Positions 5,992 to 62,404 of a DNA stretch of 64,000 bases are shown one piece after another. Location of the stretch: assembly GCF_020782115.1 (NCBI RefSeq), contig NZ_JAJGMW010000012.1:62001-126000 (forward strand). The letters are read 5' to 3'. Below the pieces are notes generated by a model. The model saw nothing but the letters and a program-made list of their open reading frames with translations. It made no database searches and was not told the origin of the DNA. A program made the translations under genes and the position numbers. The DNA comes from Leeuwenhoekiella parthenopeia. GTDB lineage: Bacteria > Bacteroidota > Bacteroidia > Flavobacteriales > Flavobacteriaceae. Within the stretch, counting starts at the first letter, position 1. Each line of letters begins with the position of its first letter.

Positions 5992-6099
5992 AAGAGTTGG
6001 GTTAGTAAAGTTTTATGCAAGTCAAATCGATAAATTACACATATTGACGATCAAATGTAAAATAATAAATTGAATTTTTAGATTTTTTATCATTTACAA

Positions 6100-22912: not shown

Positions 22913-25900
22913 TTAAAGCGGATTCTGTTTAAAGGCGGAAGGTGTTCTGCCAAATTTCTCCTTGAAGATTTTCCGGAAGTATTTGGCATCGCCAAAACCA
23001 ACTTCGTAAGCGGCCTGCGATACGGTAAAATTTTCCTTTTCGATGAGGTAAGCCGCTTTCTCAAGCCTGATGTCTCTGATGTACTCATTGATGCTTTGAC
23101 CGGTAATGGCTTTGACCTTGCGGTATAGGGAAGATCTGCTCATCCCAATATGTTCTGCAATAGTCTCTACGCTCAGATCCCCTTCCTGGGTTTGCTCAAA
23201 AATGAGTTGTTTTAATTCAGCCAGGAATTTCTTTTCGTTTTCGAGAATCTTGGAATCCTCCTGATTATCTGGCACTTGAGATTGGGAGTCCTGAACCTTT
23301 TTAAGCAGAAATTCCCGACTTTCAATCAGGTTTTTAACCCGGGCTCGCAGCACCTGAACATTAAAAGGCTTTACGATGTAATCATCAGCTCCCTCGTCAT
23401 AACCCGTTTCGATGGTTTCGTGGTTACTTTTCGCAGAGAGCAAAATAACCGGAATATGCGAGGTTTCCTTTTTGTTTTTGATGAAATGGCAAAGGTCGAG
23501 TCCGTTTTTGACGGGCATCATTACATCGCTGATGATTAAATCGGGGATATATTTAACCGCCAGGCTAATACCTTCCTCGCCATCTTCCGCCTGAATGAGG
23601 TCGTATTCTGAACCAAGCGCACTTTCTAAAAACTCAAGAATATCCGGGTTGTCGTCTACGAGCAAAACCAGTTTGCGGGAGCTTTCCGCTTTAAGGTAAA
23701 CGCTGTTTGCCTTCGGTTCAAGATTAACAGGCTCTGAATCACTAATGCGTTTTTCAACCTCTTTTTTATTGATTTGAGGCCGCTCTTCGAGCTGAAGATA
23801 GGCATCAAGCAAGGTGTCGTCGTTCGGTATTTTTAGCGTAAAGGTGCTGCCCTGATTGGCTTTGCTTTCCACCTCAAGAAAGCCCTTATGCAGATGTGCA
23901 AATCTTCTGGAAAGCGCAAGGCCTATACCTGTCCCGTCTTTTTTAAACTTGTTCTCAGATTGATAGTACCATTCAAAAATGTGGTTGAGGTCACTGGTTT
24001 TGATTCCACTTCCGGTATCTGATACCACAATATTGACATACGACTCATCAACCTCCAGAATGACATTGATCTTACCACCATCGGGCGTGTATTTTATAGC
24101 ATTTGAAATCAAATTGTTTACGATCACGTGTATTTTCTCAAGATCACAATATACCTTTATGGTTTTCTGAGGCATGGTGACCATCAGGTTGATGTTTTTC
24201 TTCTTTACAACCGGTTCGTATCCCGAGAGCCACTGAGATAGGTTTTTGCTCAGATTGTATTCATTGATTTCCAGTTTACTTAGGCCTTCTTCGCTTTTCC
24301 TGAATTCTAACAGTTTATTTATAAAACTGAGCAGATTATCTGCATTACGGCGTATGAGCTTCAAGCTTTTGCGGTGCCTTTTATGAACAATCTCATCCAG
24401 CAAGGTTTCGAGCGGAGCTAAAATAAGGGTAAGTGGGGTTTTGAGCTCGTGCGAAAACCCGGTGTAAAACCGAATGCGCTCTTCATTGAGTTCGTGCTCA
24501 AGTTTGCGTTGTTTTTGTTCAAAGAGCAGCGAGTTTTTAAGGTGGATGCGTTCGGAGTAGTATTTGAGCCCACTAATAACCAGTATAATAATCACAACTA
24601 AATAGAACAGATACGCGGGTAGTGTGCGCCAGAACGGAGGCAAAATATTAATATCTAGAGTTTTTAAATCTGTGGCATTAGGCAGATTATTCTGTTTAAT
24701 TTTTAAAGTATATTTTCCTGGCGGGATATTACTAAAATTAATCCTATTAGCATTTTTAAGATCAATCCAATTATCGTTAAAGCCTTCAAGAATATAGGAG
24801 TAGGTGATATTTTCTGAAAAAGGAAAGCTAAGGCTTGTAAAATCAATCGAAAATATTGTCTTGTCATATGGAATATTTATTTGCTTTTTATACAGCATAG
24901 AACTGCTCAAAATTCCTTTGTCACCCTCTCCTGATATGGGTACAGACTCATTAAAAATTAATAGGTCTTCCAGAACAATTGCCCCTGCAGAACTAGTTTG
25001 ATCTAAAGCTTCAGGATTAAACTCAAATATCCCTCTATTACTTCCCAGAAAGAGTTTGTTAGAGGATGATTTTAAAATTGCGCCGAGATTGAATTCCGTT
25101 ATTTGAAAACTTTTGGGCAAGTTTATAGTTTCAATAGTATTGGTTTTAACATTGTATTTATTGATTCCCTTATCGGTAGCTAACCAGAGATAATTATCAT
25201 CCCAATTAATTATGCTATTTATAGTATTGTTGCTCAATCCCTGTGTCTCTGTAATACTTATTGCTTTTGTCGAATTAGGACTGAAGCGAATTAGTCCTCC
25301 GTGTTTGGTTCCCGCTACGACTTCTCCGGTTTTTAAAACAGTAATACTGTAAACAACGTTACCACGTAAATTTTCAAGGTTATTGGTGTGATAGGAATAA
25401 GCACTTTGATCTTCCAGATCATAACTTAGAATACCATTACCATAAGTTGCTAACCATAAAGTTCCTTTTGAATCCTCTGTAATATCACGCACATCAATCT
25501 TTCCAAAGGCTTTCTCCAAAGCCTCTTCATTGATAAAGTCTTTTTTACTTTCGGAATATTTAAAAAAGCCATCGCGGTTTGTGCCAACCCAAAGTTGTCC
25601 CTCTTTGTTCTCAAATATTGATCTTATATCACTTCCCTTGCCTATACTTCCTTGCAAATAATAAGACCATTTTTGAGTTTTCAAATTAACACAGGTAATA
25701 CCACCCTTATAAGTGCCGATCCATAATCTATCTTTGCTGTCTTTATAAATAGTATTTATATAGTTTGTAGAAAGTTTGTTGCTCGAGGAGTAAACTCCGT
25801 AGTCAAAATTTCCGCTTTTGAGATCATATAGGTCAATGCCTCCACCGTCAGTACCCAAAATAAGTTTGTTTTCAGATAATTCTTCAATTGCAAATACACG

Positions 25901-27013
25901 GTTATGCGCAATTCGTTCAGAGTTATACAAATCATTGCTTATTAAAGTCAATGCCTCACCGCTTGGATCAACAAAATTTAAACCGGCACTGGTTCCAATC
26001 CACATATTGCCCGAAGAATCCTTATAAAGCGCTGATATTGTTGCGTCAGAGACACTCGAGTTATTTTCTTTAGGTAGATACCATTTAATGGAGGGTTTTT
26101 CAGGATTATCAAAAAGACTTTCACGGTCTAAAATATTTAAGCCACCGTATTGAGTTCCAATCCAGATTTGACCAAAATCATCTTCTTCGAGAGATAGAAC
26201 TACATCGTCACTCAACCCTCTTGTTGTCTTTTGTTGGCCTAAATGAAATTCTTTTCCAGTAGCCGTAAATACTTTAAGTCCCGAGTGCGTTCCTACCCAT
26301 ACATTATTCTTTTGATCAACTAAAACCGCATTTATAATGGCTTCATCTTTGTTTTTATAGGGATAGCGAATAACTTCTTTTCTTTTGATATTAAGTTTAT
26401 TTAAACCGTTATCAAAAGTTCCTATCCAGACTATACTGTCATTTTGATTTGTTAAACATGATATTTTGTTTGATGAAAGCGAATTTAAATGCTCTGACTG
26501 ATGGGAATAAAAACCAACACTTTTATTGTTTTTAAAGATATGTAATCCTTCATCATAGGCTCCAACAAGCAATTTGTGGTCCTTAAGTTGTAATACTGAA
26601 TTAATGCTATTTGATATATAAGCGAGATCGGATTGGAAAAATGAAAATTCTTCGGTACGCGGATTAAAAATATTTAGCCCACCATCTGTTGCAACAAATA
26701 GCGAACCATTTTCACACCTCCTTATTTGTTGAATATAGTTGTTAGTTAGATTAGAAGTTTCCTGTCTGAATACTTTAAATTGATTCCCGTCATATCTGTT
26801 AATGCCGTCTGATGTCCCCACCCATATAAAACCAAGTTTGTCCTCTTCAATAGATTTGACCTGATTGTTTGATAGACCGAGGTCTGTATCAATAGTATAA
26901 AAGGTTAGCTTATTGGATAAACGTTCCTGTTTAGTTGTTTGATTTTGACCAAATAGGATCAAACCAAACAATTGAAATATAAATAATGTCTTAACAGAAT
27001 TTTTAGTTAACAT
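22913..27013 (-). CDS. Hybrid two-component system sensor/regulator (HTCS)
   Basis: 1366 residues in one chain. A signal peptide leads to a periplasmic sensor of about 14 two-component propeller repeats (GTSDGINRYDG-like, 30-690) and a Y_Y_Y domain (about 700-785). Next are a membrane helix (about 795-817), the histidine kinase core with phospho-acceptor His855 in GFSHELKTPLT, and the ATPase domain with NLISNAIKYTPDGG and GTGIGLALSRR. A receiver domain has Asp1163 in LIISDVMMPV, and the AraC-type double HTH covers about 1255-1366. HTCS proteins sense an oligosaccharide from the target glycan and activate the neighbouring susCD operon. It is divergent from the GH43_24-like/susCD transcript, the usual arrangement. 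Base composition drops toward A/T in the sensor half. Confidence 0.96.
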   Translation of the reverse strand: MLTKNSVKTLFIFQLFGLILFGQNQTTKQERLSNKLTFYTIDTDLGLSNNQVKSIEEDKLGFIWVGTSDGINRYDGNQFKVFRQETSNLTNNYIQQIRRCENGSLFVATDGGLNIFNPRTEEFSFFQSDLAYISNSINSVLQLKDHKLLVGAYDEGLHIFKNNKSVGFYSHQSEHLNSLSSNKISCLTNQNDSIVWIGTFDNGLNKLNIKRKEVIRYPYKNKDEAIINAVLVDQKNNVWVGTHSGLKVFTATGKEFHLGQQKTTRGLSDDVVLSLEEDDFGQIWIGTQYGGLNILDRESLFDNPEKPSIKWYLPKENNSSVSDATISALYKDSSGNMWIGTSAGLNFVDPSGEALTLISNDLYNSERIAHNRVFAIEELSENKLILGTDGGGIDLYDLKSGNFDYGVYSSSNKLSTNYINTIYKDSKDRLWIGTYKGGITCVNLKTQKWSYYLQGSIGKGSDIRSIFENKEGQLWVGTNRDGFFKYSESKKDFINEEALEKAFGKIDVRDITEDSKGTLWLATYGNGILSYDLEDQSAYSYHTNNLENLRGNVVYSITVLKTGEVVAGTKHGGLIRFSPNSTKAISITETQGLSNNTINSIINWDDNYLWLATDKGINKYNVKTNTIETINLPKSFQITEFNLGAILKSSSNKLFLGSNRGIFEFNPEALDQTSSAGAIVLEDLLIFNESVPISGEGDKGILSSSMLYKKQINIPYDKTIFSIDFTSLSFPFSENITYSYILEGFNDNWIDLKNANRINFSNIPPGKYTLKIKQNNLPNATDLKTLDINILPPFWRTLPAYLFYLVVIIILVISGLKYYSERIHLKNSLLFEQKQRKLEHELNEERIRFYTGFSHELKTPLTLILAPLETLLDEIVHKRHRKSLKLIRRNADNLLSFINKLLEFRKSEEGLSKLEINEYNLSKNLSQWLSGYEPVVKKKNINLMVTMPQKTIKVYCDLEKIHVIVNNLISNAIKYTPDGGKINVILEVDESYVNIVVSDTGSGIKTSDLNHIFEWYYQSENKFKKDGTGIGLALSRRFAHLHKGFLEVESKANQGSTFTLKIPNDDTLLDAYLQLEERPQINKKEVEKRISDSEPVNLEPKANSVYLKAESSRKLVLLVDDNPDILEFLESALGSEYDLIQAEDGEEGISLAVKYIPDLIISDVMMPVKNGLDLCHFIKNKKETSHIPVILLSAKSNHETIETGYDEGADDYIVKPFNVQVLRARVKNLIESREFLLKKVQDSQSQVPDNQEDSKILENEKKFLAELKQLIFEQTQEGDLSVETIAEHIGMSRSSLYRKVKAITGQSINEYIRDIRLEKAAYLIEKENFTVSQAAYEVGFGDAKYFRKIFKEKFGRTPSAFKQNPL

Positions 27014-27086: not shown

Positions 27087-27161
27087 TTTTGAACGGTATA
27101 CCCCCTAAGATTTCCCCAGCCACCCCCGTATCACTTCACATAATATTGGGAAACTTGTAAA
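27087..27161 (+). promoter_or_regulatory. Candidate HTCS operator/promoter of the susCD transcript
   Basis: Within the 228-bp divergent gap: TTTTGA (27087-27092), a C-rich direct repeat CCCCCTAA (27101) and CCCCCGTA (27123) spaced 22 bp, and GGAAACTTGTAAA (27149-27161). The first repeat is preceded by TATA (TATACCCCCTAA). The same elements in the same order lie upstream of the 37819 gene. Spacing of two helical turns is what an AraC-type dimer would need. Confidence 0.65.
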
Positions 27162-27241
27162 TGTAAAATTGCTAAAGATTTATTAAAAAAGCGAAAGTCT
27201 CATGCAAGTCTTAAACAATCATGTTAGAAATAATATCCTAA

Positions 27242-28405
27242 ATGCGTCTTATTAATCTTTATTTCCTATTGGTAGCTTTTGCAATTAGCGCATTGACTAA
27301 TGCCCAGCAAAATATTAGGAATACCTCTTTTCTTCCCGGAAAGGTATGGTATGATATGCAAGGAGATACTATAAATGCTCATGGGGCTGGTTTTTACTAC
27401 GAGAAAGGGGTTTACTACTGGTATGGCGAGCACAAGAGTCGCAATAGTTTGGCTGAAGTAGGTGTTCACGTTTATAGCTCAAAAGATCTCCTCAATTGGA
27501 AAAATGAAGGTGTTGCCCTTGAAGTGAGTAAAGAGGCATCTTCTGAAATTACTAGAGGCTCGGTCATTGAGAGACCTAAAGTTGTTTATAATGAGAAAAC
27601 CGGAAAATATGTGCTGTGGTTTCATCTTGAACTTAAAGGAAAAGGATACGAGGCAGCGAGAACAGGGGTGGCAGTCAGTGATTCACCCGTTGGACCTTTC
27701 AGGTATTTAAAATCGTACAGACCGAATGCAGGTGTGTGGCCACAAAATTTTAATTCTCACCAGAAAAAGACAAACTCTAAAGAATCTTCCTATAAGTGGT
27801 GGACAAAAAAATGGTCAGAAGCTCTTGTAGATGGTCTATACGTTCGCAGAGACTTTGAAGAAGGGCAAATGTCAAGAGATATGACTGTTTTTGTGGATGA
27901 CGACGGGAAAGCGTATCACATACACTCTTCAGAAGAGAATCAAACGCTGCATATATCACTTTTGACAGAAGATTACCTAGACTTTACTGACACCTGGGTT
28001 CGGGTGCAGCCTGGTGGACAAAACGAGGCTCCTGCTGTCTTTAAAAATGGCGATTATTATTATATGATTACTTCGGGCTTGACTGGTTGGGATCCTAACT
28101 CTGCCCGTTCTTTCCGGGCAAGATCAATGCTTGGTCCCTGGCAAAGTCTTGGCAACCCGTCAAAAGGAAAAGGGGCTGAAGTTACATTTAATTCGCAAAG
28201 CACTTATGTGTTGCCTGTAGAAGATAGAAAAGATACTTTCATTTTTATGGCTGATCGCTGGAACCCCAAAAATCATCAGGATGGAAGGTATGTGTGGTTG
28301 CCAGTAATTATAAATAATGAAGGAAACCCTGAAATTAAATGGACTGATGAATGGAATTTTAACGAAAAAAGCTATTCAACTGAAAATGAATTAGGTGGAA
28401 AATAA
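27242..28405 (+). CDS. GH43 glycoside hydrolase, exo-beta-1,3-galactanase-like (GH43_24 type)
   Basis: 387 residues with a signal peptide (1-21, ending LTNAQQ). The start of the domain, VWYDMQGDTINAHGAGFYYE and YYWYGEHK, plus the block QNEAPAVFKNGDYYYMITSG near 258-277, match the GH43_24/_34 group. In this group the usual Asp base is replaced and a Glu in the EAP motif is the acid. Members release galactose from beta-1,3-galactan even next to branch points, as in arabinogalactan proteins. It has no sorting domain and is probably periplasmic. It is the first gene of the presumed susCD operon, under the candidate HTCS operator; its stop is 158 bp from susC, a gap that holds no other gene. The subfamily is from motif memory. 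Confidence 0.8.
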   Translation: MRLINLYFLLVAFAISALTNAQQNIRNTSFLPGKVWYDMQGDTINAHGAGFYYEKGVYYWYGEHKSRNSLAEVGVHVYSSKDLLNWKNEGVALEVSKEASSEITRGSVIERPKVVYNEKTGKYVLWFHLELKGKGYEAARTGVAVSDSPVGPFRYLKSYRPNAGVWPQNFNSHQKKTNSKESSYKWWTKKWSEALVDGLYVRRDFEEGQMSRDMTVFVDDDGKAYHIHSSEENQTLHISLLTEDYLDFTDTWVRVQPGGQNEAPAVFKNGDYYYMITSGLTGWDPNSARSFRARSMLGPWQSLGNPSKGKGAEVTFNSQSTYVLPVEDRKDTFIFMADRWNPKNHQDGRYVWLPVIINNEGNPEIKWTDEWNFNEKSYSTENELGGK

Positions 28406-28563
28406 AATGCGATACCTCAATCGATATCGTAAACCAGTAATCAATAATTAAAACTATTAAACTATGATCAAACCAGACGACTTAAGTCTTTGCCTTTTAA
28501 AGCAACCCAACTGTAAACTATGAAACTATTGATAAAAACTACCTTAAGATTAGAACAATAATT

Positions 28564-31500
28564 ATGAAACATAATATTCTTAATATTAAAAGAGCCTATT
28601 CTTTGATGCTGCTGGTTTTGAGTTGCACATTGAGTCTAAATACATATGCCTTAAGACTTGATAATTCTGAAAACGTGGCGTTGCAGAAAGTGGTTACCGG
28701 TACTGTATATGACGACAGTGATAACAATCAACCTCTTATCGGGGTTACGGTTGTTGAAAAAGGAACTAATAATGGTACTGCTACAGATTTTGATGGAAAT
28801 TATTCTATACGGGTCGCTCCGGGGGCTACCCTGGTTTTTTCATTCGTAGGTTTTGAAACGAAGGAAGTATTGGTTTCAGACCAGGAAAGTATTGATGTAA
28901 CTCTGAGTCTTAGCTCAGAATCATTGGAAGAAACCGTTGTAATAGCCTTTGGAGGTAAGCAGCTTAAAGAAAGTCAGGTAAGTTCTATTGCAACTATCAA
29001 CCCCGCAGAACTAAAAGGACCTACCAATAACCTTACTAATATGATCGCGGGTCGCGTACCGGGAATGATTTCTTTTCAGCGGTCTGGTGAGCCGGGGGCA
29101 GATAACTCTGACTTCTTTATTCGGGGTTTGAGTACTTTTGGGAGTGGTAAGCGTAATCCCCTAATATTAATTGATAATATTGAATCTACGCCCACTGATC
29201 TTGCTCGTTTGCAACCAGACGACATAGACACCTTTTCAGTCTTAAAAGATGCGGCAGCTGCTTCAGTTTATGGAGCGCGTGGTGCAAATGGCGTGATTCT
29301 CATTACCACAAAAAGTGGTAAAGCCGGTAAGGCAAAATTTAGTGCACGTGCAGCATCGCGAATTTCAACTAATACCGATAATTTTCAGTTTGCAGATAAT
29401 ATTACCTACATGAATCTGGCAAATGAGGCTGCGCTTACGCGTGATCCTCTGGCGGCATTGCCTTATTCGCAAATTAAAATTGATCGTACTGCAGCAGGAG
29501 ATAATCCGTATTTGTACCCCAGCAATAATTGGATAGATCAAATCCTAAAAGACTATACCGTTAACCAAAGTTTTAATATTAGTGCCAGTGGAGGTTCAGA
29601 ACGTGCGCGCTATTATGTTTCAGGAACTTACAATGTGGATAATGGAATTTTGGATGTTAATCCCATAAATAATTTTAACAGTAATATTAAACTCCAAAAT
29701 TATTCGCTTAGAAGTAAATTGGATATAGACCTGACACCTACAACTTTTGCAACGGTTAACATCTATGGTCAGTTTGACGACTATAATGGTCCAATCGCTC
29801 AAGGTGGAGACATCATTGCTTCAACGGTAAATGCAAACCCGGTAGCATTTCCGGCAATCTTTCCTTCAGAATTTTATCCTATAGCAGAGCATCCTTTATT
29901 TGGTAATGCTCCCTTGTCATTGTCAAGTAATGCTTTATATAGAAATCCATATGCAGAGATGGTTAGAGGGTATCGTACTACCAAGAACTCAACGGTACAG
30001 GCACAACTTGCAATTGATCAAAAACTTGATTTTATTACTAAAGGGCTTAAACTAGGAACTATGAATTATATAAGACGTTATAATTCCTATTCAATAAGTA
30101 GAGCCTATAATCCTTTTTACTATCAGGCTTCCCGTAATCCGGTTGATAACAGTATAATGTTAAGAGTACTAAATGACGGTACTCAGGCCTCAATAGGCAC
30201 CCCCGGAACTGAATTTTTAAATCTTGCCGGAGGCGGGAATGTTTCAAATTCCAGAATTTACAACCAGTTTACACTTAATTATGATAAAACATTTGCTGAA
30301 AAGCATGTGGTTTCGGGTTTTCTAATCAATGTTTTACAAAGTTATGAGACTACGGAATATGATAACCTTCAGCAATCGTTACAATATCGTAACCATACTT
30401 TTTCTGGAAGGTTTACCTATGCTTTTGATAGAAGGTATATTGCCGAATTTAGCTTTGGGTATAACGGTTCAGAGCGTTTTGATCGCAGCAACAGATATGG
30501 TTTTTTCCCTTCATTTGGTGTGAGCTATGTAGTTTCAAATGAAGCTTTTTTTGAAAAATTGAAAGAAACTGTGACCAATCTCAAATTGCGATTTACCTAC
30601 GGTAAGGCCGGAAATGACGAAATTGGAAATGCAGATGAGGATAGATTCTTTTATTTATCAAGAGTAAATGCTAATAACGGAGGATTTGGAGCTCTGTTCG
30701 GTCAGGATTATAATTACTACCGCCCGGGTATATCGATAGATCGTTATGCAAATCCAAATATTGGTTGGGAGATTTCGGAGCAATACAATTTTGGTATAGA
30801 CATTGGTTTATGGAGAGATTTAAATATTACTGCAGAGATTTATCAACAAAACCGTTCAAATATACTTCAAAGGCGTACAGAAATTGGGGATGTAATAGGT
30901 CTGACCGCGCAGCCTCAAGTAAATTTTGCAGAGCTTGAGTCAAAGGGTATTGATTTATCTTTAGATTATAACAGGCAAATAAATCAGGAGTGGTGGACAC
31001 AGGCAAGAGCTACGTTAACTTTTGCGACTAATGAGGTTAAACAGACTAATGAGCTCAACTATCCCGATGATTTAAGTTACCTCTCTCAGGTAGGTAATAA
31101 TGCATCTCAAATGTACGGGTATCTTGCCGAGCGTTTATTTACAGATCAGGAAGAAGTAAATAATTCACCAGCACAATTTGGTCAATATACCGGTGGAGAT
31201 ATTAAGTATCGTGATGTAAATGGCGATGGCGTGATTACACCTTTAGACCGCGTACCTATTGGTTTACCAACTACACCTGAATTAATCTATGGTTTTGGAG
31301 GCACTGTTGGATATAAAGATTTTGACTTAAGTATTTTCTTTCAGGGATCTGCCCGGTCCTCTTTTCAAATCGATCCCAGAGCTATTTCACCATTTGTTTT
31401 GGGTACGGGTGATAACACTGGTAGACAAAATGGCTTGCTTAAAATCATTGCAGACAGCTACTGGTCTGAAGACAACAGAGACCTATATGCTTTTTGGCCT

Positions 31501-31776
31501 CGCCTAAGCTCAACAGTAATTGAGAATAATGTGCAGAGTTCATCCTGGTGGCTGCAAAACAATGATTTCTTAAGACTTAAGAATCTTGAGTTTGGCTATC
31601 GTGCTTCAGAGCGCCTTACAGAATCCTTAGGCTTACGCTCTTTACGTGTTTATGCGAGTGGAATCAACCTTGCCGTTTGGAGCAGCTTTAAGCTTTGGGA
31701 TCCTGAAATGGGAGGAAATGGTTTAGGATATCCTATTCAATCTACTTACAACTTAGGTGTTCAATTTGACTTTTAA
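28564..31776 (+). CDS. SusC/RagA-type TonB-dependent outer-membrane transporter
   Basis: 1070 residues. Signal peptide to about residue 29, then a carboxypeptidase-regulatory-like barrel-extension domain (GTVYDDSDNNQPLIGVTVVE, about 46-125). The plug domain carries IDNIES, DDIDTFSVLKDAAAASVYG and RGANGVILITTKSG, a strong SusC signature, and a C-terminal 22-strand barrel ends in LGVQFDF. With SusD it imports oligosaccharides across the outer membrane using TonB energy. It is 12 bp before susD. The ligand cannot be read from sequence; PUL context points to arabinogalactan fragments. Confidence 0.97.
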   Translation: MKHNILNIKRAYSLMLLVLSCTLSLNTYALRLDNSENVALQKVVTGTVYDDSDNNQPLIGVTVVEKGTNNGTATDFDGNYSIRVAPGATLVFSFVGFETKEVLVSDQESIDVTLSLSSESLEETVVIAFGGKQLKESQVSSIATINPAELKGPTNNLTNMIAGRVPGMISFQRSGEPGADNSDFFIRGLSTFGSGKRNPLILIDNIESTPTDLARLQPDDIDTFSVLKDAAAASVYGARGANGVILITTKSGKAGKAKFSARAASRISTNTDNFQFADNITYMNLANEAALTRDPLAALPYSQIKIDRTAAGDNPYLYPSNNWIDQILKDYTVNQSFNISASGGSERARYYVSGTYNVDNGILDVNPINNFNSNIKLQNYSLRSKLDIDLTPTTFATVNIYGQFDDYNGPIAQGGDIIASTVNANPVAFPAIFPSEFYPIAEHPLFGNAPLSLSSNALYRNPYAEMVRGYRTTKNSTVQAQLAIDQKLDFITKGLKLGTMNYIRRYNSYSISRAYNPFYYQASRNPVDNSIMLRVLNDGTQASIGTPGTEFLNLAGGGNVSNSRIYNQFTLNYDKTFAEKHVVSGFLINVLQSYETTEYDNLQQSLQYRNHTFSGRFTYAFDRRYIAEFSFGYNGSERFDRSNRYGFFPSFGVSYVVSNEAFFEKLKETVTNLKLRFTYGKAGNDEIGNADEDRFFYLSRVNANNGGFGALFGQDYNYYRPGISIDRYANPNIGWEISEQYNFGIDIGLWRDLNITAEIYQQNRSNILQRRTEIGDVIGLTAQPQVNFAELESKGIDLSLDYNRQINQEWWTQARATLTFATNEVKQTNELNYPDDLSYLSQVGNNASQMYGYLAERLFTDQEEVNNSPAQFGQYTGGDIKYRDVNGDGVITPLDRVPIGLPTTPELIYGFGGTVGYKDFDLSIFFQGSARSSFQIDPRAISPFVLGTGDNTGRQNGLLKIIADSYWSEDNRDLYAFWPRLSSTVIENNVQSSSWWLQNNDFLRLKNLEFGYRASERLTESLGLRSLRVYASGINLAVWSSFKLWDPEMGGNGLGYPIQSTYNLGVQFDF

Positions 31777-31788
31777 AAAAACTTAAAT

Positions 31789-33756
31789 ATGAAAAATATA
31801 CTATTTAAAAAATCTTTTAAGCGAAAGTTAGTGCTGGTACTGGCACTACCCTTTGTGATGATTTATAATGCCTGCCAGGATGATTATCTGGATGTAGTTC
31901 CTGATGGTCTGGCTACTGTTGATAAAATTTTTAATTTGAGACAGGAAGCTGAAAAGTATCTGTTTACGTGTTACTCATATATGCCAAGGTTAGGAGATTT
32001 GCGTAGAAACGCGGCCTTTCTTGCCGGCGATGAAATGTGGGTGCCAGACAACCGTGAAAACGGGGATTACTTTGCATTAGAGATTGCTTTAGGAAGGCAA
32101 CGTGTTGCAAACCCATATTATAATGTATGGCAGGGAGAGTATCAGGGAGGTTTGCCATTTGACGGCTCTGAAATCTGGGATGGCATCAGACACTGTAATA
32201 TTTTTATTGAGAATATGTCTGATCCTAACAACGTACCTGATATTACAGATACTGAGCGGGAACGCTGGATTGCAGAAGCTAAGTTTTTAAAGGCCTATTA
32301 TCATTTTTATTTAATGCGCCATTACGGGGCAATACCTATTATTAAAGAAAACGTTTCTGTAGATGCTCCAACACCTGCATTTGATTTGCCGCGTGATCCT
32401 TATGATGAGGGAATTGATTATATAGTTGAACTTCTGGATGAGGCCGCTGCAGTATTACCACCGGTTATAGCAGATATCAATACAGAATATGGTCGCATTA
32501 CTTCGGTTATTGCCAGATCATTAAAAGCACGGGTTTTAGTAACTGCCGCAAGTCCGTTATACAATGGTAACCCAGATCTTTCGGTAGTAATCAATAACGA
32601 TGGTACACCATTATATAATACCACTTTTGAAGCCAATAAATGGCAAATTGCGGCTGATGCGGCAAAAGAGGCCATTGATGCAGCTGAAGCTGCAGGACTA
32701 AGATTGTATGAGTTCAATGAGGCTTTAACGGGATTTGATCTTACAGATACTACTGTTACCAAGTTGAGCATTCGTAATGCAATCACAGACCCTGAAAGCC
32801 TGGAAATTATTTGGCCTAATACCCAAAGTCTTACAAATGGAGCAGACGGTCTTCAGGCCAGTGCAATGGCACCTCTTGAGGTTGGTCATAATACCCGGGT
32901 GGCACGTAAAGTAATTTCACCTACAATTACGATGGCAAAATTATTTTATACTGATAATGGAGTGCCAATCACGGAAGATAAAGCTTACGATTTTAACGAT
33001 ATCCTTGAGTTGAGAGAAGCTCAACCTGATGAGCGTTATAATATAGAAGAAGGATATCGCACTTCAAGATTAAATTTTGACCGGGAACCTCGTTTTTACG
33101 CAGACCTTGGTTTTGATGGAAGTATGTGGTATAAGCGTGATGCTTTGGGAGATGAAACCAAATGGCACATAGAAGGTAAATTCGGGGACTATTCAGGAAG
33201 TGATCATCCATTCTTTTTTAACGAGACCGGGTATTACTGTAAAAAACTGGTGAATTGGAGAATGACATTTAGTAATGATGGTGGAACCTTTGAGACCTAT
33301 GCCTGGCCCGAAATGCGTCTTGCAGATTTATATTTGCTCTATGCAGAAGCTCTTAATGAAGTGTCAGGACCTTCACAAGAGGTTTATTCCTACTTAGATC
33401 AGATACGAGAACGTGCTGGTTTAGATGGTGTTGTAGAGTCCTGGGCAGCACATTCCAACAATCCAAATAAGCCAACAACTAAAGAAGGCTTGAGAAGTAT
33501 TATACAACAGGAGCGTATGATAGAATTGGCTTTTGAAGGACAGCGCTATTGGGATCTTCTTCGCTGGAAACGCGCGGTTCAGGAATTTAATGATAATGTG
33601 CAGGGTTGGAATGTTAAAGGTGATGATGAAGCATCTTACTATCAAATACGCACCATTCATCTACAAAATTTTATTTCACCTCGTGATTATTTCTGGCCAC
33701 TCAGTGAAACGTCTTTAATCCGTAACACAAATCTGGTTCAAAACCCAGGTTGGTAA
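31789..33756 (+). CDS. SusD/RagB-family glycan-binding lipoprotein
   Basis: 655 residues. The lipobox Cys29 (FVMIYNACQDDY) is followed by the N-terminal helical TPR-like region of SusD (EAEKYLFTCYSYMPRLGD; WIAEAKFLKAYYHFYLMRHYG). The C-terminal family blocks are PEMRLADLYLLYAEALNEV, IIQQERMIELAFEGQRYWD and LLRWKRAVQEFND. It forms the lid over the SusC pore on the cell surface and captures the glycan. It is 12 bp after susC and 16 bp before the next lipoprotein gene. Confidence 0.97.
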   Translation: MKNILFKKSFKRKLVLVLALPFVMIYNACQDDYLDVVPDGLATVDKIFNLRQEAEKYLFTCYSYMPRLGDLRRNAAFLAGDEMWVPDNRENGDYFALEIALGRQRVANPYYNVWQGEYQGGLPFDGSEIWDGIRHCNIFIENMSDPNNVPDITDTERERWIAEAKFLKAYYHFYLMRHYGAIPIIKENVSVDAPTPAFDLPRDPYDEGIDYIVELLDEAAAVLPPVIADINTEYGRITSVIARSLKARVLVTAASPLYNGNPDLSVVINNDGTPLYNTTFEANKWQIAADAAKEAIDAAEAAGLRLYEFNEALTGFDLTDTTVTKLSIRNAITDPESLEIIWPNTQSLTNGADGLQASAMAPLEVGHNTRVARKVISPTITMAKLFYTDNGVPITEDKAYDFNDILELREAQPDERYNIEEGYRTSRLNFDREPRFYADLGFDGSMWYKRDALGDETKWHIEGKFGDYSGSDHPFFFNETGYYCKKLVNWRMTFSNDGGTFETYAWPEMRLADLYLLYAEALNEVSGPSQEVYSYLDQIRERAGLDGVVESWAAHSNNPNKPTTKEGLRSIIQQERMIELAFEGQRYWDLLRWKRAVQEFNDNVQGWNVKGDDEASYYQIRTIHLQNFISPRDYFWPLSETSLIRNTNLVQNPGW

Positions 33757-33772
33757 TTTAAAAATTGAAACT

Positions 33773-34990
33773 ATGAGAACACTAATTTTAAAACCAGTAG
33801 TCCTATTTATACTTTTATCTATAGGTCTAAGCTGCTCCGAAGAAGTCGAGCAGGTTCCTTTGGAATCTAATAGCACTGCACCGGCGCCCGTATCCAATGT
33901 TAATATTGAAAATCTACCAGGTGAAGTTAAATTGACTTTTACACTTCCCAAAGATCCGGATCTTTTGTACGTAAAAGCTAATTATACGCTTCCCACAGGA
34001 AGAGAAATGGAGGTAAAATCATCTTTGTATTCTAATTCTATGATTTTACAGGGGTTTAGCGGTAATGATGAAGTAGATGTAGAGGTCGTTGCTGTAAACC
34101 GTAGCGAGGTTGAATCAGAACCCGTATTGCTTAGCGTGAAGCCGTTACAGTCTCCAATATTCGACGTCTATGAAAGTTTAAGTGTAGGGAGTGCGTTTGG
34201 AGGTATTTTTGTGAACGCTGATAATCCGGTACGGGAGGATCTGGCAATTTTAATACTTACCAAAAATGAAGAAGGTGACTATGTAGCTGATCCTAATAGC
34301 ATCTATACTTCTACTGATGATATTAGACGCGTAGTGAGAGGGTATGATACTATACCAAGAGAGTTTGCCTTTACCATTCGTGACAGATGGCTCAATTATA
34401 CTGACACACTGGTAACCTCAATTACTCCATTATTTGAGCAGGCAATACCTAAGTCAAGCTATGGAGATTTACGTTTGCCCAATGATGCTCCCGGGCATAA
34501 TTCCACTCCAAAGAGCGGAATGTGGGATAATGATTTTATTAACTGGCCTCGCTGTTATTTAACTCAGGGTAATTTTATTGCTGATACGCACATAACAAGT
34601 TTTGATATTGGCGTTCTAGCCAAGCTAAGTCGAATAGTTATATGGGACTACCCGGAATATTACAATAGCGGTAATGGTACTGGAAGGGCTTATTATTACA
34701 ACGTTTGTATGAAAGAATTTAAAATTTACGGTTCTGCAGAATTAGAAACTACTGGGGATCTTGACAAGTGGACTCTTTTAGGTACATACAAACAAGTAAA
34801 ACCATCAGGATTGCCCTATGGACAGAGTACAGGAGAAGATTTTGCAACGGCTAATGCCGGTTTTAGTTGGGATATTGACCCCAGTGCTGGTCCTATGCGT
34901 TACATCCGTATAGAGATGATTGATAACTGGGCAGGTACATACTCAATGGGTATATCTGAGCTTCAGGTATACGGTAACACAAAATTTTAA
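33773..34990 (+). CDS. DUF4959/DUF5126/DUF5000 surface lipoprotein (putative SGBP)
   Basis: 405 residues. Lipobox LLSIGLSCSEE (Cys about 21). The first domain (PVSNVNIENLPGEVKLTFTL) is DUF4959-like, the middle (SPIFDVYESLSVGSAFGGI) DUF5126-like, and the C-terminal ~150 residues are a discoidin-type beta sandwich (DUF5000), ending RYIRIEMIDNWAG...ISELQVYG. Proteins with this order are usually encoded right after susD and are believed to be surface glycan-binding proteins. A non-catalytic binding role here is inferred from fold and position. Confidence 0.85.
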   Translation: MRTLILKPVVLFILLSIGLSCSEEVEQVPLESNSTAPAPVSNVNIENLPGEVKLTFTLPKDPDLLYVKANYTLPTGREMEVKSSLYSNSMILQGFSGNDEVDVEVVAVNRSEVESEPVLLSVKPLQSPIFDVYESLSVGSAFGGIFVNADNPVREDLAILILTKNEEGDYVADPNSIYTSTDDIRRVVRGYDTIPREFAFTIRDRWLNYTDTLVTSITPLFEQAIPKSSYGDLRLPNDAPGHNSTPKSGMWDNDFINWPRCYLTQGNFIADTHITSFDIGVLAKLSRIVIWDYPEYYNSGNGTGRAYYYNVCMKEFKIYGSAELETTGDLDKWTLLGTYKQVKPSGLPYGQSTGEDFATANAGFSWDIDPSAGPMRYIRIEMIDNWAGTYSMGISELQVYGNTKF

Positions 34991-35009
34991 TCTTAAATAG
35001 AATAGCAAG

Positions 35010-36224
35010 ATGAAAAATTTACATTTATATATATACGTAGCGGTCGTAAGCTGTTTTATGATTCTTTGGTCGTGTTCAGATCAGGAATATGACGATTACA
35101 AGAAATTTGCTGATGGAGGTGAAATAAATTATACTGAAAAAGTAGATTCGTTAAAATCCTTTTCTGGGAAAAACAGAATTATGCTTCAGGGGATAATTAA
35201 TGCTGACCCAAAAATCACTGAATTTCGTGTCTTTTGGAACGACGGAAGAGATTCTGTTTCAGTACCGATAACACGCAGTGGTGGTGTTGATACACTTGAG
35301 GTCACGATTGCTGATATTCCGGAGAACATCTACAACTTTCAGATCCGTACGTATGACGCAGCAGGTAATAAATCTTTAGTATCTAATGTAACTGGTGCGG
35401 TATATGGAGAACGGTATCAAAATACATTATACAACAGACCGGTGCTAGCAAACGATCTGGTTAATGGTACATTAACTATTTCTTACGCAAGTATGGATCT
35501 AACAACAGGCGTGATTGGAACAGAAGTTTTAATTGATGGGGCTTCGGAGTCAATTTTCATTCCAATAGATTCAGAGGAGTATAATATTTCAGATTATGTA
35601 GCTGGAGAAAGTTATAAATATCGAACACTCTTTTTACCTGAAGAGACGGCCATAGATACTTTTACAACAGATTATGTTTCCTACACTCCAATAGCCAAGC
35701 CTATACTTGTTAATGCCGCGATTCCTTTTAAAGCTTCTTCTCGTTCTGGTAGATGGGGTATTTTGGAAGATTGGACAACAACGCAACCTGTTTTGGTACA
35801 TGGTGGTTATGGTGGCTGGGATGAATGGAATGGTAATATTTTTAATATAGAATCCGGTTGGGGTGCAGCAGCAGTTAATAACGGTAAAATCTACCAAACC
35901 TTAAACGAAGTACAGCCCGCTACTTATGTATTGAATGTCTTGATAAGAGATACAAACCATAAGTTGACAGACGCGGGTGGGTCGTATTTTGTAGTTGCCA
36001 AAGGAAATACGCTTCCAGACGTTTCAGATGTTACAAGTGCAGAGGAGGTCCTTGCTTACAAAAGGATAAATGTAGAATTGGGCTCAGAGTATACCTATAG
36101 ATTAGAGTTTACAATTGAGGATGAATCTACAGATATCACTGTTGGTCAAATTACCACTCAGGCTTCTGGTGATCCAGGACGTTTTTGCAACGTAAGATCT
36201 TGGGATATTGTCGTACAGAACTAA
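35010..36224 (+). CDS. DUF4998/DUF5013 surface lipoprotein (putative SGBP)
   Basis: 404 residues with lipobox Cys22 (MILWSCSDQ). The N-terminal part has the DUF4998 opening YDDYKKFADGGEINYTEKVD, followed by SGKNRIMLQGII, and reads as two FN3-like domains. The C-terminal ~170 residues (ASSRSGRWGILEDWTT to RSWDIVVQN) form a beta-sandwich of DUF5013 type with many Trp and Gly, as in carbohydrate-binding modules. It is the last gene before a clear terminator, closing the susCD transcript. Probably a second glycan-binding protein; no catalytic residues are apparent. Confidence 0.85.
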   Translation: MKNLHLYIYVAVVSCFMILWSCSDQEYDDYKKFADGGEINYTEKVDSLKSFSGKNRIMLQGIINADPKITEFRVFWNDGRDSVSVPITRSGGVDTLEVTIADIPENIYNFQIRTYDAAGNKSLVSNVTGAVYGERYQNTLYNRPVLANDLVNGTLTISYASMDLTTGVIGTEVLIDGASESIFIPIDSEEYNISDYVAGESYKYRTLFLPEETAIDTFTTDYVSYTPIAKPILVNAAIPFKASSRSGRWGILEDWTTTQPVLVHGGYGGWDEWNGNIFNIESGWGAAAVNNGKIYQTLNEVQPATYVLNVLIRDTNHKLTDAGGSYFVVAKGNTLPDVSDVTSAEEVLAYKRINVELGSEYTYRLEFTIEDESTDITVGQITTQASGDPGRFCNVRSWDIVVQN

Positions 36225-36235
36225 AAACATTATTT

Positions 36236-36266
36236 AAAAGGGAAGAGGTCTTAATCTTCCCTTTTT
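36236..36266 (+). terminator. Terminator closing the susCD transcript
   Basis: AAAAGGGAAGA pairs with TCTTCCCTTTT, followed by further T. It is 11 bp after the DUF4998 gene stop and 86 bp before the next ATG. Confidence 0.88.
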
Positions 36267-36351
36267 ATTTGATGAAATATTCAGTTTATAAAATCATATT
36301 TCCAAAGCACGAGATACCTTAAAACTGAGGATAAATACAATACATACTATA

Positions 36352-37557
36352 ATGAAATATTTAAAATATATATTTTTTTCAACTAGCATTCTGTTGTGGA
36401 GTCTTAGTTGCTCACCGGAAGATGCTAAAGAAGAACCTAAAGAGGATCCTGTCGTTGAGCTAAATTTAGCTACAGTTAAAACTAATGAGGTTTCAGATGT
36501 AGATGCTTATAAGGCTACAATATCAGCCAGGGTTGAAGATGATGGAGGCAGTACAATTAAGGAGCGTGGAATATGTTATGCTCTGGCACCTAATCCAGAT
36601 TATTCAGATAATAGGGCTACACCTAATTCATTTAAAGGATCTGGTGAGTATGAAATTAACCTTTCTGATCTTGAAGATAACACAACCTACTTTATCCGTG
36701 CATTTGCAACAAATTCTAAGGGAATAGCCTACGGTAATGAATTGTCATTTAAAACCCTTAATGCTGATGTACCTAAGTTTGCTATTAGTGAAACTAAGGT
36801 AAGCGGGGTTCATGATATTTGGGTAGAAACCACTCTGATTGAGACGGGTGACGCGAACATTAAAGAGATAGGTATAGTTTACGGTACGACAGCTGATTTA
36901 AATGTTGAAAGTAATCAGGTCGTTGTTCAGGAGGAGGTGAAGGCTAAATATTTAAGCAGAATGACCAAACTCGAAGAAAAAACAACGTATTATTTTAAAG
37001 CTTATGCTATTACAGAAAATAATGACGTTTTTTATAGTGAACCTGAATCGTTTGAGACAATTAATTCCGGTGATTTTACATTTACAATAAATGGATATGA
37101 TGAAAATAGTCCTGTTTTTACCAGGTTAAAAAATGCTATCGAAAAGGTTCAGTATTATTACAATAATTTTACGTCCATTAAAAAACACGTTTGGGTAAAT
37201 TATGTACCCGGAGTGCCTACTGCTGATGCTAATTTTGAAGGATGGATTCGTTTTGGTTCTAATCAATCCTATCAACAAACTGGAACGGCCCTGCACGAGG
37301 TGGCTCATACGGTAGGAGTAGGTACACATTCTAAATGGAATGAACTTCTAAAAGGCGGAATCTATCAGGGCTCAAGAGCAAATCAAATTTTAAAGCTTTT
37401 AACTCAGGATGAGGATACAGCAATAAAAGGAGACGGTTTACATTTTTGGCCGTTTGGAATAAACGGAGCGCACGAAGATGATGGTCAGGATATGACATAT
37501 ATTATAAATACTTTAATTATTCAAGGAATGCGTGCTGATGGTTTACCCATCAACTAA
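36352..37557 (+). CDS. Lipoprotein with FN3-like repeats and an HExxH motif, function unknown
   Basis: 401 residues. Lipobox LLWSLSCSPE (Cys about 20) and an acidic linker precede two FN3-like domains (about 35-135 and 136-235), each with a TYFIRAFATN/TYYFKAYAIT strand. The C-terminal ~165 residues hold LHEVAHTVGVGTHSKW (His315, Glu316, His319, His326), a zinc-protease-like HExxH with Gly322 placed as in metzincins. The third His is one residue later than in HExxHxxGxxH. A further conserved-looking block is GDGLHFWPFGINGAHEDD. The gene is between two terminated transcripts of the PUL. It could be a surface glycoprotease attacking the protein core of a proteoglycan, or a non-peptidase metal site. 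I do not recognise the family with certainty. Confidence 0.75.
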   Translation: MKYLKYIFFSTSILLWSLSCSPEDAKEEPKEDPVVELNLATVKTNEVSDVDAYKATISARVEDDGGSTIKERGICYALAPNPDYSDNRATPNSFKGSGEYEINLSDLEDNTTYFIRAFATNSKGIAYGNELSFKTLNADVPKFAISETKVSGVHDIWVETTLIETGDANIKEIGIVYGTTADLNVESNQVVVQEEVKAKYLSRMTKLEEKTTYYFKAYAITENNDVFYSEPESFETINSGDFTFTINGYDENSPVFTRLKNAIEKVQYYYNNFTSIKKHVWVNYVPGVPTADANFEGWIRFGSNQSYQQTGTALHEVAHTVGVGTHSKWNELLKGGIYQGSRANQILKLLTQDEDTAIKGDGLHFWPFGINGAHEDDGQDMTYIINTLIIQGMRADGLPIN

Positions 37558-37632
37558 GGCTATTTATATAGCTGGGTTTACTTATAGCAAGCTTTAAGAG
37601 CAAATGGTTAGCTTGTATTGAATAATTGTAGG

Positions 37633-37707
37633 TTTTGACCACCCCGTCCCCCCTAATTTGTCAATTTATACCCTCTAAAAATACCTGTTTTTCAGGAAAC
37701 TTGTAAA
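37633..37707 (+). promoter_or_regulatory. Candidate HTCS operator/promoter of the enzyme transcript
   Basis: The 261-bp gap before 37819 repeats the layout seen at 27087: TTTTGA (37633-37638), CCCCCTAA (37649) and CCCTCTAA (37671) spaced 22 bp, and GGAAACTTGTAAA (37695-37707). TGA-to-GGAAAC distance is 59 bp in both regions. The second repeat reads TATACCCTCTAA, close to TATACCCCCTAA of the other site. TACGTTTT about 21 bp further downstream is a near -7 match. Confidence 0.65.
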
Positions 37708-37818
37708 CCAATTATAAATGCTATTACGTTTTCGAAAAACAAACTTGGTGTTATAATCAAAGATAGATATGTAGGTAACTCAAATTATAAATGTTTTATT
37801 TACATTTATAAAATTATT

Positions 37819-39135
37819 ATGAATTTCAGATTACTCATTTCATCAATTCTTGTGCTTGCCATTTGTGGCAGCTGTGCTGGTCTTCGTTTAGCCCAAGCTG
37901 CTAAAGAAAGTGTTGTAGGTGAGGGCTGGTCTTCCAATTCGGTAAATACAGTAATCTTCAGGCAAAATGCGGTTACGACCTATGCCGATATGCAATTTAC
38001 AGCCTATTATGATGCCGAAGCACGGGTAATTCTAGCCAAACGTAAACTGCCCCGTGGCGAATGGGAGGTTTATAAAACGCAATATACAGGCAATGCAAAA
38101 GATGCCCACAATGCTATTAGTATTGCTATTGATGGGAAAGGTTATTTGCATGTAAGCTGGGATCATCACGACAATGCCTTGCGTTATGCTAAGAGTTTAG
38201 AACCTTTTGGTCTTGAACTTGCTGAAATACAACCCATGACCGGTATCGATGAAAATAAAGTCTCTTATCCGCAATTCTACAATTTGCCCTCAGGAGATTT
38301 AATCTTTATGTACCGCTCCGGGCAATCGGGTAGAGGCAGTTTAGTTATCAACCACTATGATATCGCTGAGGCAAAGTGGTTTGCGTTGTACAGCAACCTT
38401 ATAGATGGTGAAGAAAAGCGTAATGCCTATTGGCAGGCCTATGTAGATCAGGAGGGTACCATTCACCTTTCCTGGGTATGGCGCGAAAGCTGGGACGTGT
38501 CTACCAATCACGATATCGCTTACGCGCAGTCAAAAGATGGCGGTAAAACCTGGCAACAATCAGACGGGAGCTTTTATGAATTACCCATTACACAGCGTAG
38601 CGCGGAGTATGCAGCGATCATTCCGCAAAAGAGTTCGCTGATCAATCAGACGGCGATGACTACTGACAGCCAGGGCAATCCCTACATTGCTAATTATTGG
38701 AATGTGGGAGATGCAACCCAATTTCACGTTGTTTATCTCAAAGAAGGTCAATGGCAAACCGAAAATACCGCATTCAGAACAACGGGTTTTCAGTTGGGCG
38801 GTGGCGGAACAAAAAAAATACCCATCTCGCGACCTGAGATTTTTATCGATGAATCTCATGGCAAGAGGCTTTACCTGCTCTTTCGGGATGCAGAACGCGG
38901 ATCAAAAATAGTCCTCGCTTCGCGGGATTTAAATAAAGAAGAATCCTGGAAGTTTACTGATATGACTACAGCATCTGTTGGCGATTGGGAACCCAATTTT
39001 GACAAAGAATTATTTAAAAAAACAGGAAAGCTTCACCTATTTGTGCAACAGGTGAATCAGGTGGATGGCGAAGGGCTTCAAAACAATGAGCCTACACCTG
39101 TTAAGATTTTAGAGTATAATACATTACCAGAATAA
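37819..39135 (+). CDS. BNR_4 seven-bladed propeller protein, PL42 (former GH145)-like lyase candidate
   Basis: 438 residues. Lipobox-like signal (ICGSCAGL, Cys about 19). The propeller opens with the BNR_4 blocks TAYYDAEARVILAKRKL, KDAHNAISIAIDGKGYLHVS and WDHHDNALRYAKS, then repeats of GNPYIANYW type. The central His pairs (about 96-118) are the metal/catalytic region in relatives. BNR_4 proteins include ulvan lyases (PL24, PL25, PL40) and PL42, which removes L-rhamnose from alpha-1,4-linked glucuronic acid of arabinogalactan protein and leaves an unsaturated uronic acid. With a GH105 in the same transcript, a PL42-type role is the best guess. The exact family needs a profile search. Confidence 0.7.
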   Translation: MNFRLLISSILVLAICGSCAGLRLAQAAKESVVGEGWSSNSVNTVIFRQNAVTTYADMQFTAYYDAEARVILAKRKLPRGEWEVYKTQYTGNAKDAHNAISIAIDGKGYLHVSWDHHDNALRYAKSLEPFGLELAEIQPMTGIDENKVSYPQFYNLPSGDLIFMYRSGQSGRGSLVINHYDIAEAKWFALYSNLIDGEEKRNAYWQAYVDQEGTIHLSWVWRESWDVSTNHDIAYAQSKDGGKTWQQSDGSFYELPITQRSAEYAAIIPQKSSLINQTAMTTDSQGNPYIANYWNVGDATQFHVVYLKEGQWQTENTAFRTTGFQLGGGGTKKIPISRPEIFIDESHGKRLYLLFRDAERGSKIVLASRDLNKEESWKFTDMTTASVGDWEPNFDKELFKKTGKLHLFVQQVNQVDGEGLQNNEPTPVKILEYNTLPE

Positions 39136-42267
<3,132 letters not shown>

Positions 42268-42275
42268 GAATTTCT

Positions 42276-44234: not shown

Positions 44235-44288
44235 GCCTTTTTGCATGAAGCATCCCGGTAATAGATTGTATTCATTTAAAAGCATTTT

Positions 44289-47681: not shown

Positions 47682-47690
47682 ATACAAATT

Positions 47691-49744: not shown

Positions 49745-49758
49745 ACTAAACTCAAAAG

Positions 49759-51789: not shown

Positions 51790-51828
51790 TTCCTGTTCAG
51801 TTTAGTTTATAATTTTTAAATAGTTTAA

Positions 51829-54981
<3,153 letters not shown>

Positions 54982-54987
54982 AAGACT

Positions 54988-62291: not shown

Positions 62292-62314
62292 ACTTTAAAT
62301 TTTAAACCTTGAAT
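62292..62314 (-). repeat. Right AT-rich 23-mer flanking the hairpin array
   Basis: The minus strand reads ATTCAAGGTTTAAAATTTAA AGT, inverted relative to 61591-61613. A third, related copy is at 14960-14982. Confidence 0.75.
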
Positions 62315-62320
62315 CAAATC

Positions 62321-62404
62321 CGCGTGAGGGATAGTAGTGGAAATCCTTTAGGAGCGGGAGCGACTAAAGATTGCAACGTATAGCCTGGCCCGAAGGGCAC
62401 GCCC
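62321..62404. ncRNA. Candidate structured RNA element (possibly Flavo-1-like)
   Basis: Outer pairing GCGTG (62322-62326) with CACGC (62398-62402). An inner stem CTTTAG/CTAAAG closes a GAGCGGGAGCGA loop, and a tight GCCC-GAA-GGGC hairpin occupies 62388-62398. I recall similar sequences recurring between genes in flavobacterial genomes, and the Flavo-1 motif is the named RNA that may correspond, but I cannot confirm it. Strand is uncertain because the element is largely self-complementary. Confidence 0.5.

Follow-up and report, generated by a model that had tools for sequence, protein, structure and literature searches.

We analyzed a stretch of 64,000 nucleotides from Leeuwenhoekiella parthenopeia (contig NZ_JAJGMW010000012.1, positions 62,001 to 126,000), hereafter called the window and numbered from its first letter. 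It carries a polysaccharide utilization locus (PUL) with the gene of a hybrid two-component system (HTCS) regulator. HTCSs control much of the glycan breakdown in Bacteroidota, and which genes they act on is mostly deduced from what lies nearby. We found two sites of common layout in the promoter regions of this locus and a third one on another contig (C26) of the same genome. We consider it highly probable, judging from sequence comparison, that each site binds a dimer of the locus HTCS (22913-27013), which would drive three promoters in this way. The sites are very probably the landing pattern of the sensor of a plant-gum PUL.

Layout of the putative operator

An earlier note on this DNA had described four elements in each of two regions, and all were present at the claimed places: TTTTGA (27087 and 37633), a C-rich element CCCCCTAA (27101 and 37649), a second C-rich copy exactly 22 bp further on (CCCCCGTA at 27123, CCCTCTAA at 37671) and an identical GGAAACTTGTAAA (27149 and 37695). 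The distance from TGA to GGAAAC was 59 bp in each site. However, TTTTGA does not stand on its own; half-site 1 begins within it, making it the 5' portion of that half-site, and we therefore rejected the reading of the four elements as independent motifs. The C-runs of site 2 are shifted 2 bp to the right relative to TTTTGA and GGAAAC when compared with site 1, so that an ungapped alignment of the sites fits the outer elements only. This shift was rejected as a sign of altered geometry, because the spacing of half-sites and box is equal in both sites.

The operator consists of two bipartite half-sites, roughly TTGAMCA-TTTnTACCC, repeating at 22 bp. A box, GAAAATTGTA (here GGAAACTTGTA), begins 38 bp after the start of half-site 2, and the distance from TTGA to the box is 60 bp; we denote this spacing (22,38). 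We counted conserved columns in 36 sites. Half-site 1 gave G 29, C 33 and CCC 30, 36 and 30, and half-site 2 gave G 26, C 32 and CCC 31, 33 and 29; as 13 of the sites come from training gaps, these counts lean towards the model. The box gave A 34, T 36, T 36 and G 34, with a selection bias, since the box is part of the model and the sites were chosen partly by it. Two sites (L188, L197) were anchored by hand at the box, and the near copies L044 and L045 were omitted. Within a half-site, G and C are followed by CCC approximately 10 bp after the C. Between the halves, the single C and the CCC stand 22 bp apart and the G 23 bp. This layout fits an AraC-type domain whose two reading helices would enter successive major grooves.

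Recurrence in relatives

In the gaps beside the HTCS genes of relatives, the same order of words was visible by eye. We collected HTCSs by similarity of receiver and DNA-binding domain (DBD) from 397 genomes of the family and scored the six best candidates per genome. The similar set comprised 22 HTCSs with at least 230 bits against the locus HTCS, among the matches listed. The next listed matches, picked by hand, served as controls (39 regions fetched, 38 used); L218 came from a wrong place and was left unused, and L214 and L232 were scored in spite of being cut by contig ends. Briefly, the leave-one-out model involved two half-sites and the box with free spacing under a flat prior (13 by 40, that is 520 possibilities). 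Controls were scored with a model of all 22 gaps, and 550 dinucleotide shuffles were made.

We observed scores of at least 20.5 in 17 of the 22 listed similar gaps, while the maximum was 19.6 for the shuffles and 17.3 for the 38 control gaps. A spacing of exactly (22,38) was chosen by 14 of the 22, out of 520 options. The 22-bp direct repeat was found in both window sites and, with free spacing, in 16 of the 22 listed gaps, one of which (L195) has a score inside the shuffle range. Site 1 as a whole reached 25.1 at (22,38), and the maximum of 25 shuffles of its gap was 14.1.

Further, we built a rigid model with matrices from 13 HTCS gaps without the window and applied it to 80 loci (1.75 Mb) around relatives of the window SusC, including loci of Zunongwangia, Aestuariibaculum, Flavobacterium and Christiangramia. 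There were 20 hits above 18 bits, of which L044 and L045, both near copies, account for four. All 20 were intergenic, though open reading frames (ORFs) of at least 150 aa cover 88% of the sequence. Reversed sequence gave 0 hits and 13 altered spacings gave 0-6. Hits were located upstream of GH43 in four Leeuwenhoekiella loci (L044-L047), upstream of SusC genes in L048-L050, L056, L059, L077 and L093, upstream of BNR_4 in L044, L045, L049, L051 and L105, and upstream of GH2 in L051 and L105. Zunongwangia has hits before SusC and BNR_4, and Aestuariibaculum before BNR_4 and GH2. The hit of L053 precedes another gene, upstream of SusC, and L077:21780 has no following ORF in the locus. Positions before PUL operons and beside the HTCS gene are those of a direct-repeat HTCS operator.

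Association with one clade of DNA-binding domains

A tree was built from 57 receiver-DBD sequences. One well-supported clade (SH-aLRT 98) had the operator in 21 of its 24 rows, whereas none of the 33 rows outside it did. The operator label needed 4 changes on the tree, in comparison with a shuffled mean of 17. The motif follows the phylogeny of the DBD, as a direct-repeat HTCS operator would. These in silico data support the suggestion of the earlier note that the sites are candidate HTCS operators. L105 and L161 carry the label 'operator' on account of sites elsewhere in the locus or genome, outside the HTCS gap. Named loci were labelled 'none' when the rigid model gave no hit above 18 bits in the locus, and rows of the L. 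parthenopeia genome when it gave none above 14. The tree omits L166, L175, L176, L178 and the second HTCS of L046, whose gaps were not examined.

We also searched for HTCSs of this clade in whole genomes, in a hand-chosen sample of 25 of the 80 loci (24 genomes). A clade HTCS above 230 bits was found in 5 of the 7 genomes whose fetched locus has a site and in 1 of the 17 whose locus has none (Fisher p = 0.0027). When L051 and L059, whose HTCS was already known from the locus, were left out, the figures were 3 of 5 and 1 of 17 (p = 0.024). The single genome among the 17 belongs to Echinicola (L080/L100) and has a clade HTCS with a 39.5-bit operator in the HTCS gap; the class is therefore not confined to Flavobacteriaceae. 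In a phylum-wide sample of 395 genomes, two reached such DBD scores, and both belong to the family. In Flavobacterium L050 and L053 the HTCS and the site lie on different contigs, and the own gap of the HTCS has no convincing site.

Rarity in the genome and a third site

The earlier note had reasoned that an operator should not be frequent in unrelated promoters. We ran this test genome-wide, and the motif was not frequent: the 71-bp pattern with at most 3 mismatches had 3 matches in the 4.42-Mb genome (site 1, site 2 and contig C26), and the backwards control had 0. As the pattern was written from those three sites, only the lack of further matches is informative. The 13-mer GGAAACTTGTAAA has exactly 2 matches in 4,418,806 bases, both in the window sites, and the reversed pattern has 1. 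A looser grammar, ACCCN{14,22}CCCN{18,32}GAAANTTGTA, matched three places, namely site 1, the gap beside a paralogous HTCS gene (contig C17) and, unexpectedly, C26; the backwards control had 1 match. With CCCCN{14,22}CCCN{18,32}GGAAACTTGTA we searched 13 genomes of the genus and found 3 matches in L. parthenopeia, 2 in G303, 1 in G307 and 0 in the other ten (controls 0). The rigid model ranked site 2 (37635, 40.5 bits) and site 1 (27089, 23.8 bits) first and second in the 64 kb; nothing else on either strand of the window exceeded 9 bits. In eight other stretches of the genome (150,459 bases) the C26 site alone exceeded 14 bits.

The third site (C26:1578-1648), found in the genome-wide search, ends 66 bp upstream of a gene for a 1566-aa PF11790 protein, which we take to be GH128-like. 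This gene (E <= 1e-50) was present in 3 of 13 genomes of the genus, including L. parthenopeia. The operator precedes the orthologue in both other genomes (30.0 bits in G303 with 96% protein identity; 42.3 bits in G305 with 58%), and in G305 the bases of the half-sites differ. Of all the observations, this conservation before orthologues argues most strongly for a motif that marks a regulon rather than just a locus. The PF11790 protein is a candidate further enzyme of the same regulon.

The paralogous HTCS on C17 (L125, gap 6004-6226) adjoins susC, susD and a GH2 gene. Its DBD belongs to the same clade (49% identity to that of the locus HTCS), and its gap has an operator of the same class with spacing (20,39) and box AGAAAATTGTA. 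Since this paralogue uses the same operator class, cross-talk is possible.

Proposed mechanism

The anatomy, spacing, specificity and conservation of the sites, as well as their association with one clade of DBDs, could be read from the sequences. Binding, the stoichiometry of the dimer, activation and contact of the box with polymerase are what we infer. Once a glycan fragment has been sensed in the periplasm, a phosphoryl group would move to the receiver, and two HTCS molecules would then bind the two tandem bipartite half-sites with their AraC-type domains. At 22 bp, or two helical turns, the half-sites would lie on the same face of the DNA. One helix-turn-helix would read the G and C of TTGAMCA or TTTGWCA in each half-site, and the other the CCC one turn further on. 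RNA polymerase, recruited by the dimer, would act at a promoter that has the fixed box, 60 bp from the operator start, as its upstream element. The promoters driven would be those of GH43-susC-susD, of BNR_4-GH2-GH97 and of the unlinked, secreted PF11790 glycosidase gene on C26.

Several observations weigh against this proposal. Half-site 2 is degenerate in site 1 (-4.6 bits) and in the C26 site (-2.5); such sites may be weaker, or they may be variants specific to the lineage. Five of the 22 listed similar gaps scored below 20.5 (L187, L193, L195, L199, L200); the HTCS frame of L187 is broken and its gap probably misplaced, and the HTCS of L200 lies outside the clade of the tree. Two of the 7 site-bearing genomes had no clade HTCS, namely L056 (a metagenome-assembled genome with a site of just 18.0) and L093. 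The C17 operator, whose spacing is shorter, was missed by the rigid model at 14 bits, and a -7 consensus TAnnTTTG was no more than weakly enriched where it would be expected. For the 13 training sites, the positions came from an earlier model in which the window had been included. The model seeds, too, were written after inspection of sequences of the same class; we therefore fetched six further gaps (>230 bits) after the model was fixed. Three of these gave 39.5, 46.3 and 43.4 bits at (22,38), a fourth reached just 10.1 at (22,38), and two were unconvincing, with 12.8 and -3.8 at other spacings.

Alternative explanations

The sites could be read by another regulator, either a separate AraC-type or LacI-type protein or the C17 paralogue, but we regard this as very unlikely. 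Its clade and its own operator would allow the C17 paralogue to cross-bind, yet its operator differs in box and spacing, while the third site and those of the window have GGAAACTTGTA in common. Presence of the operator follows the clade of the HTCS DBD and, less strictly, the presence of a clade HTCS in the genome. A LacI-like palindrome lies near 14 of the 38 operator sites, in comparison with about 1 expected; it is, however, a separate element downstream of the box. We give almost no credence to a recent local duplication of functionless promoter DNA, although both sites are in one locus and share an identical 13-mer. This explanation was rejected because the flanks and spacers of the two sites do not align, and because the geometry recurs with diverged spacers in 14 of the 22 listed HTCS gaps and at a third, unlinked place.

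A different question is what the box represents, and here the operator itself is not at stake. The box GGAAACTTGTAAA could be the -33 element of an ordinary housekeeping promoter, linked to the HTCS only via activation, which we judge to be a serious possibility somewhat short of an even chance. Its TTG is almost invariant (T 36, T 36, G 34 of 36), like the published -33 TTTG of B. fragilis (PMC7366714), and TAnnTTTG-like words are mildly commoner 15-21 bp downstream (0.71 in comparison with 0.16-0.27 per offset). On the other hand, the conservation spans GAAAATTGTA, beyond TTG, in a set of sites selected partly by the box. Further, the box was not enriched in the 38 other HTCS gaps (1 match above 10 bits; shuffles 2.7), while the 22 listed similar gaps, 13 of them training gaps, had 16 such matches (shuffles 1.45). 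The box therefore looks specific to promoters of the clade and not like a generic promoter box. We tentatively propose that it may instead be a third recognition element of the HTCS clade, in the form of a dedicated promoter element or of a partial half-site in inverted orientation. Operator and box would then form a rigid 71-bp module (22 + 38 bp), which many Flavobacteriaceae and an Echinicola genome would have retained as the intervening sequence drifted, and which alone would be enough to find unlinked targets. By eye, the reverse complement of the box, TACAATTTTC, looks similar to TGACAATTTT, the 5' module of the half-site.

The palindrome, approximately CGAAATCGATTTCG, stands at window positions 37721-37734, at L134:1685-1698 and at other sites. 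We counted it as CGAAAWCGWTTTCG with at most 3 mismatches within 121 bp of the box start, and kinship inflates the count of 14 in 38. Its expectation was approximately 1 from the overall rate and 1.6 from the control HTCS gaps (8 in 22,800 bases). It suggests that a second regulator may act on these promoters.

Comparison with known systems

In E. coli, AraC binds the tandem half-sites araI1-araI2, which lie approximately 21 bp apart, with two helix-turn-helix units reading each of them. The sites described here are likewise tandem, at 22 bp. In contrast to araI2, which abuts the -35 element, the 20-bp half-site 2 ends 18 bp before the box.

According to Ravcheev et al. 2013 (PMC3878776), direct-repeat motifs with a mean distance of 21 bp were predicted for 16 HTCSs of B. 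thetaiotaomicron, and related HTCSs generally share similar motifs. As there, two conserved sites form a direct repeat with a non-conserved spacer before susC/susD operons and sometimes before distant genes, and a dimer on one side of the DNA was proposed. Our sites differ, as far as the text of that paper goes, in the mostly 22-bp distance, the lineage, the bipartite half-sites and a box specific to the clade, which begins 38 bp after half-site 2 does. Since direct-repeat HTCS motifs of Bacteroides are already published, the kind of operator is known; what is added is a sequence class, a rigid third box and an unlinked target. A similar box may exist in Bacteroides as well. A literature search of limited coverage and wording, which included parts of PMC10766802 and of PMC12125979 (the latter on another regulator), returned no HTCS operator outside Bacteroides.

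Reports on B. thetaiotaomicron describe binding of BT0366 and BT1754 to PUL DNA by chromatin immunoprecipitation sequencing (PMC3404733) and of BT4124 and BT4663 by electrophoretic mobility shift assay (PMC11253607). In the portions seen, that binding was mapped to loci or promoter fragments; here half-sites are resolved, by prediction. In HTCSs with an S/CHIP-DK motif, binding is held off until phosphorylation. The receiver of the locus HTCS contains the SHIP part of this motif.

An operator class resolved to single base columns, with strict spacing and almost no background in 4.4 Mb would allow regulons to be called from sequence, including unlinked genes such as the PF11790 gene on C26, and cases such as Flavobacterium L050 and L053. 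The operators would also be compact DNA targets for solving the structure of an HTCS DBD on its operator.

Genes of the locus and other observations

The earlier note had placed the sites upstream of two putative transcripts, the first site in the divergent gap of the HTCS gene, and the gene context agrees (ORF list, Pfam). Site 1 lies between the HTCS gene and the GH43 gene, and site 2 upstream of the BNR_4 gene (Table 1). The largest gaps in the ORF list between 27013 and 57711 measure 228 bp and 261 bp, both hold sites, and the next one measures 158 bp, which fits two transcripts. The genes within each of the two sets are presumed to be co-transcribed.

Table 1. Coordinates of the operator elements and of the genes discussed (window positions unless a locus is named)
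Feature	Position	Strand	Remarks
Site 1 half-site 1, TTGAACGGTATACCCCCTAAGA	27089-27110	plus	18.0 bits alone
Site 1 half-site 2, TTTCCCCAGCCACCCCCGTA	27111-27130	plus	degenerate: conserved C and CCC kept, G lost; -4.6 bits
Site 1 box, GGAAACTTGTAAA	27149-27161	plus	60 bp from half-site 1 start; GH43 start codon 93 bp after box start
Site 2 half-site 1, TTGACCACCCCGTCCCCCCTAA	37635-37656	plus	7.6 bits
Site 2 half-site 2, TTTGTCAATTTATACCCTCT	37657-37676	plus	strong match to class consensus, 22.5 bits
Site 2 box, GGAAACTTGTAAA	37695-37707	plus	60 bp from half-site 1 start; BNR_4 start codon 124 bp after box start
HTCS	22913-27013	minus	Pfam: Reg_prop propellers, Y_Y_Y, HisKA, HATPase_c, receiver, AraC-type HTH_18; presumed DNA-binding protein
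First putative target transcript	27242-37557	plus	GH43 (1,3-galactanase-like), SusC, SusD, DUF4959/DUF5126/DUF5000 protein, DUF4998/DUF5013 protein, 401-aa protein
Second putative target transcript	37819-57711	plus	BNR_4 (BT3686-type rhamnosidase-like), GH2, GH97, FG-GAP/ASPIC protein, GH16, GH88, DUF2264, GH2, MG2 protein
1566-aa protein gene	L134:1715-6415 (contig C26)		PF11790 (Glyco_hydro_cc) core, fn3, laminin-G-like and T9SS sorting domains

The HTCS unites in one chain a propeller sensor, a histidine kinase, a receiver and an AraC-type helix-turn-helix, the domains by which an HTCS is recognized. The best PDB match of the GH43 protein was 6eug, named beta-glucanase by its depositors (E = 8e-134), followed by chains named 1,3-beta-galactosidase and exo-beta-1,3-galactanase. 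The BNR_4 protein scored 602.9 bits against NCBIfam AlphRhmnaseBT3686, under the family cut-off of 700, and also matched PDB 5mum (BACINT_00347). The 401-aa protein of the first transcript had weak PF16656/fn3 matches. A GH43 galactanase together with a BT3686-type rhamnosidase are, as we assume, marks of an arabinogalactan PUL, and the gene set may fit such a locus and substrate. The window is close to L. nanhaiensis G18 (locus L044), with SusC 100% and HTCS 98% identical.

The 1130-aa FG-GAP/ASPIC-UnbV protein within the PUL (44289-47681) has relatives after the SusC operon in L046 (60%) and L057 (47%). An A-T-rich inverted repeat (37785-37811) stands directly before the BNR_4 start codon, and similar ones were seen by eye in some leaders of relatives. 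Leader hairpins were rejected as a shared RNA element after folding of 6 leaders (z-scores -0.95 to 0.05). At the gathering threshold, Rfam gave no match in the whole window besides a Flavo-1 RNA at 62314-62394 on the plus strand (46.7 bits, gathering score 42), which is unrelated to the operator.

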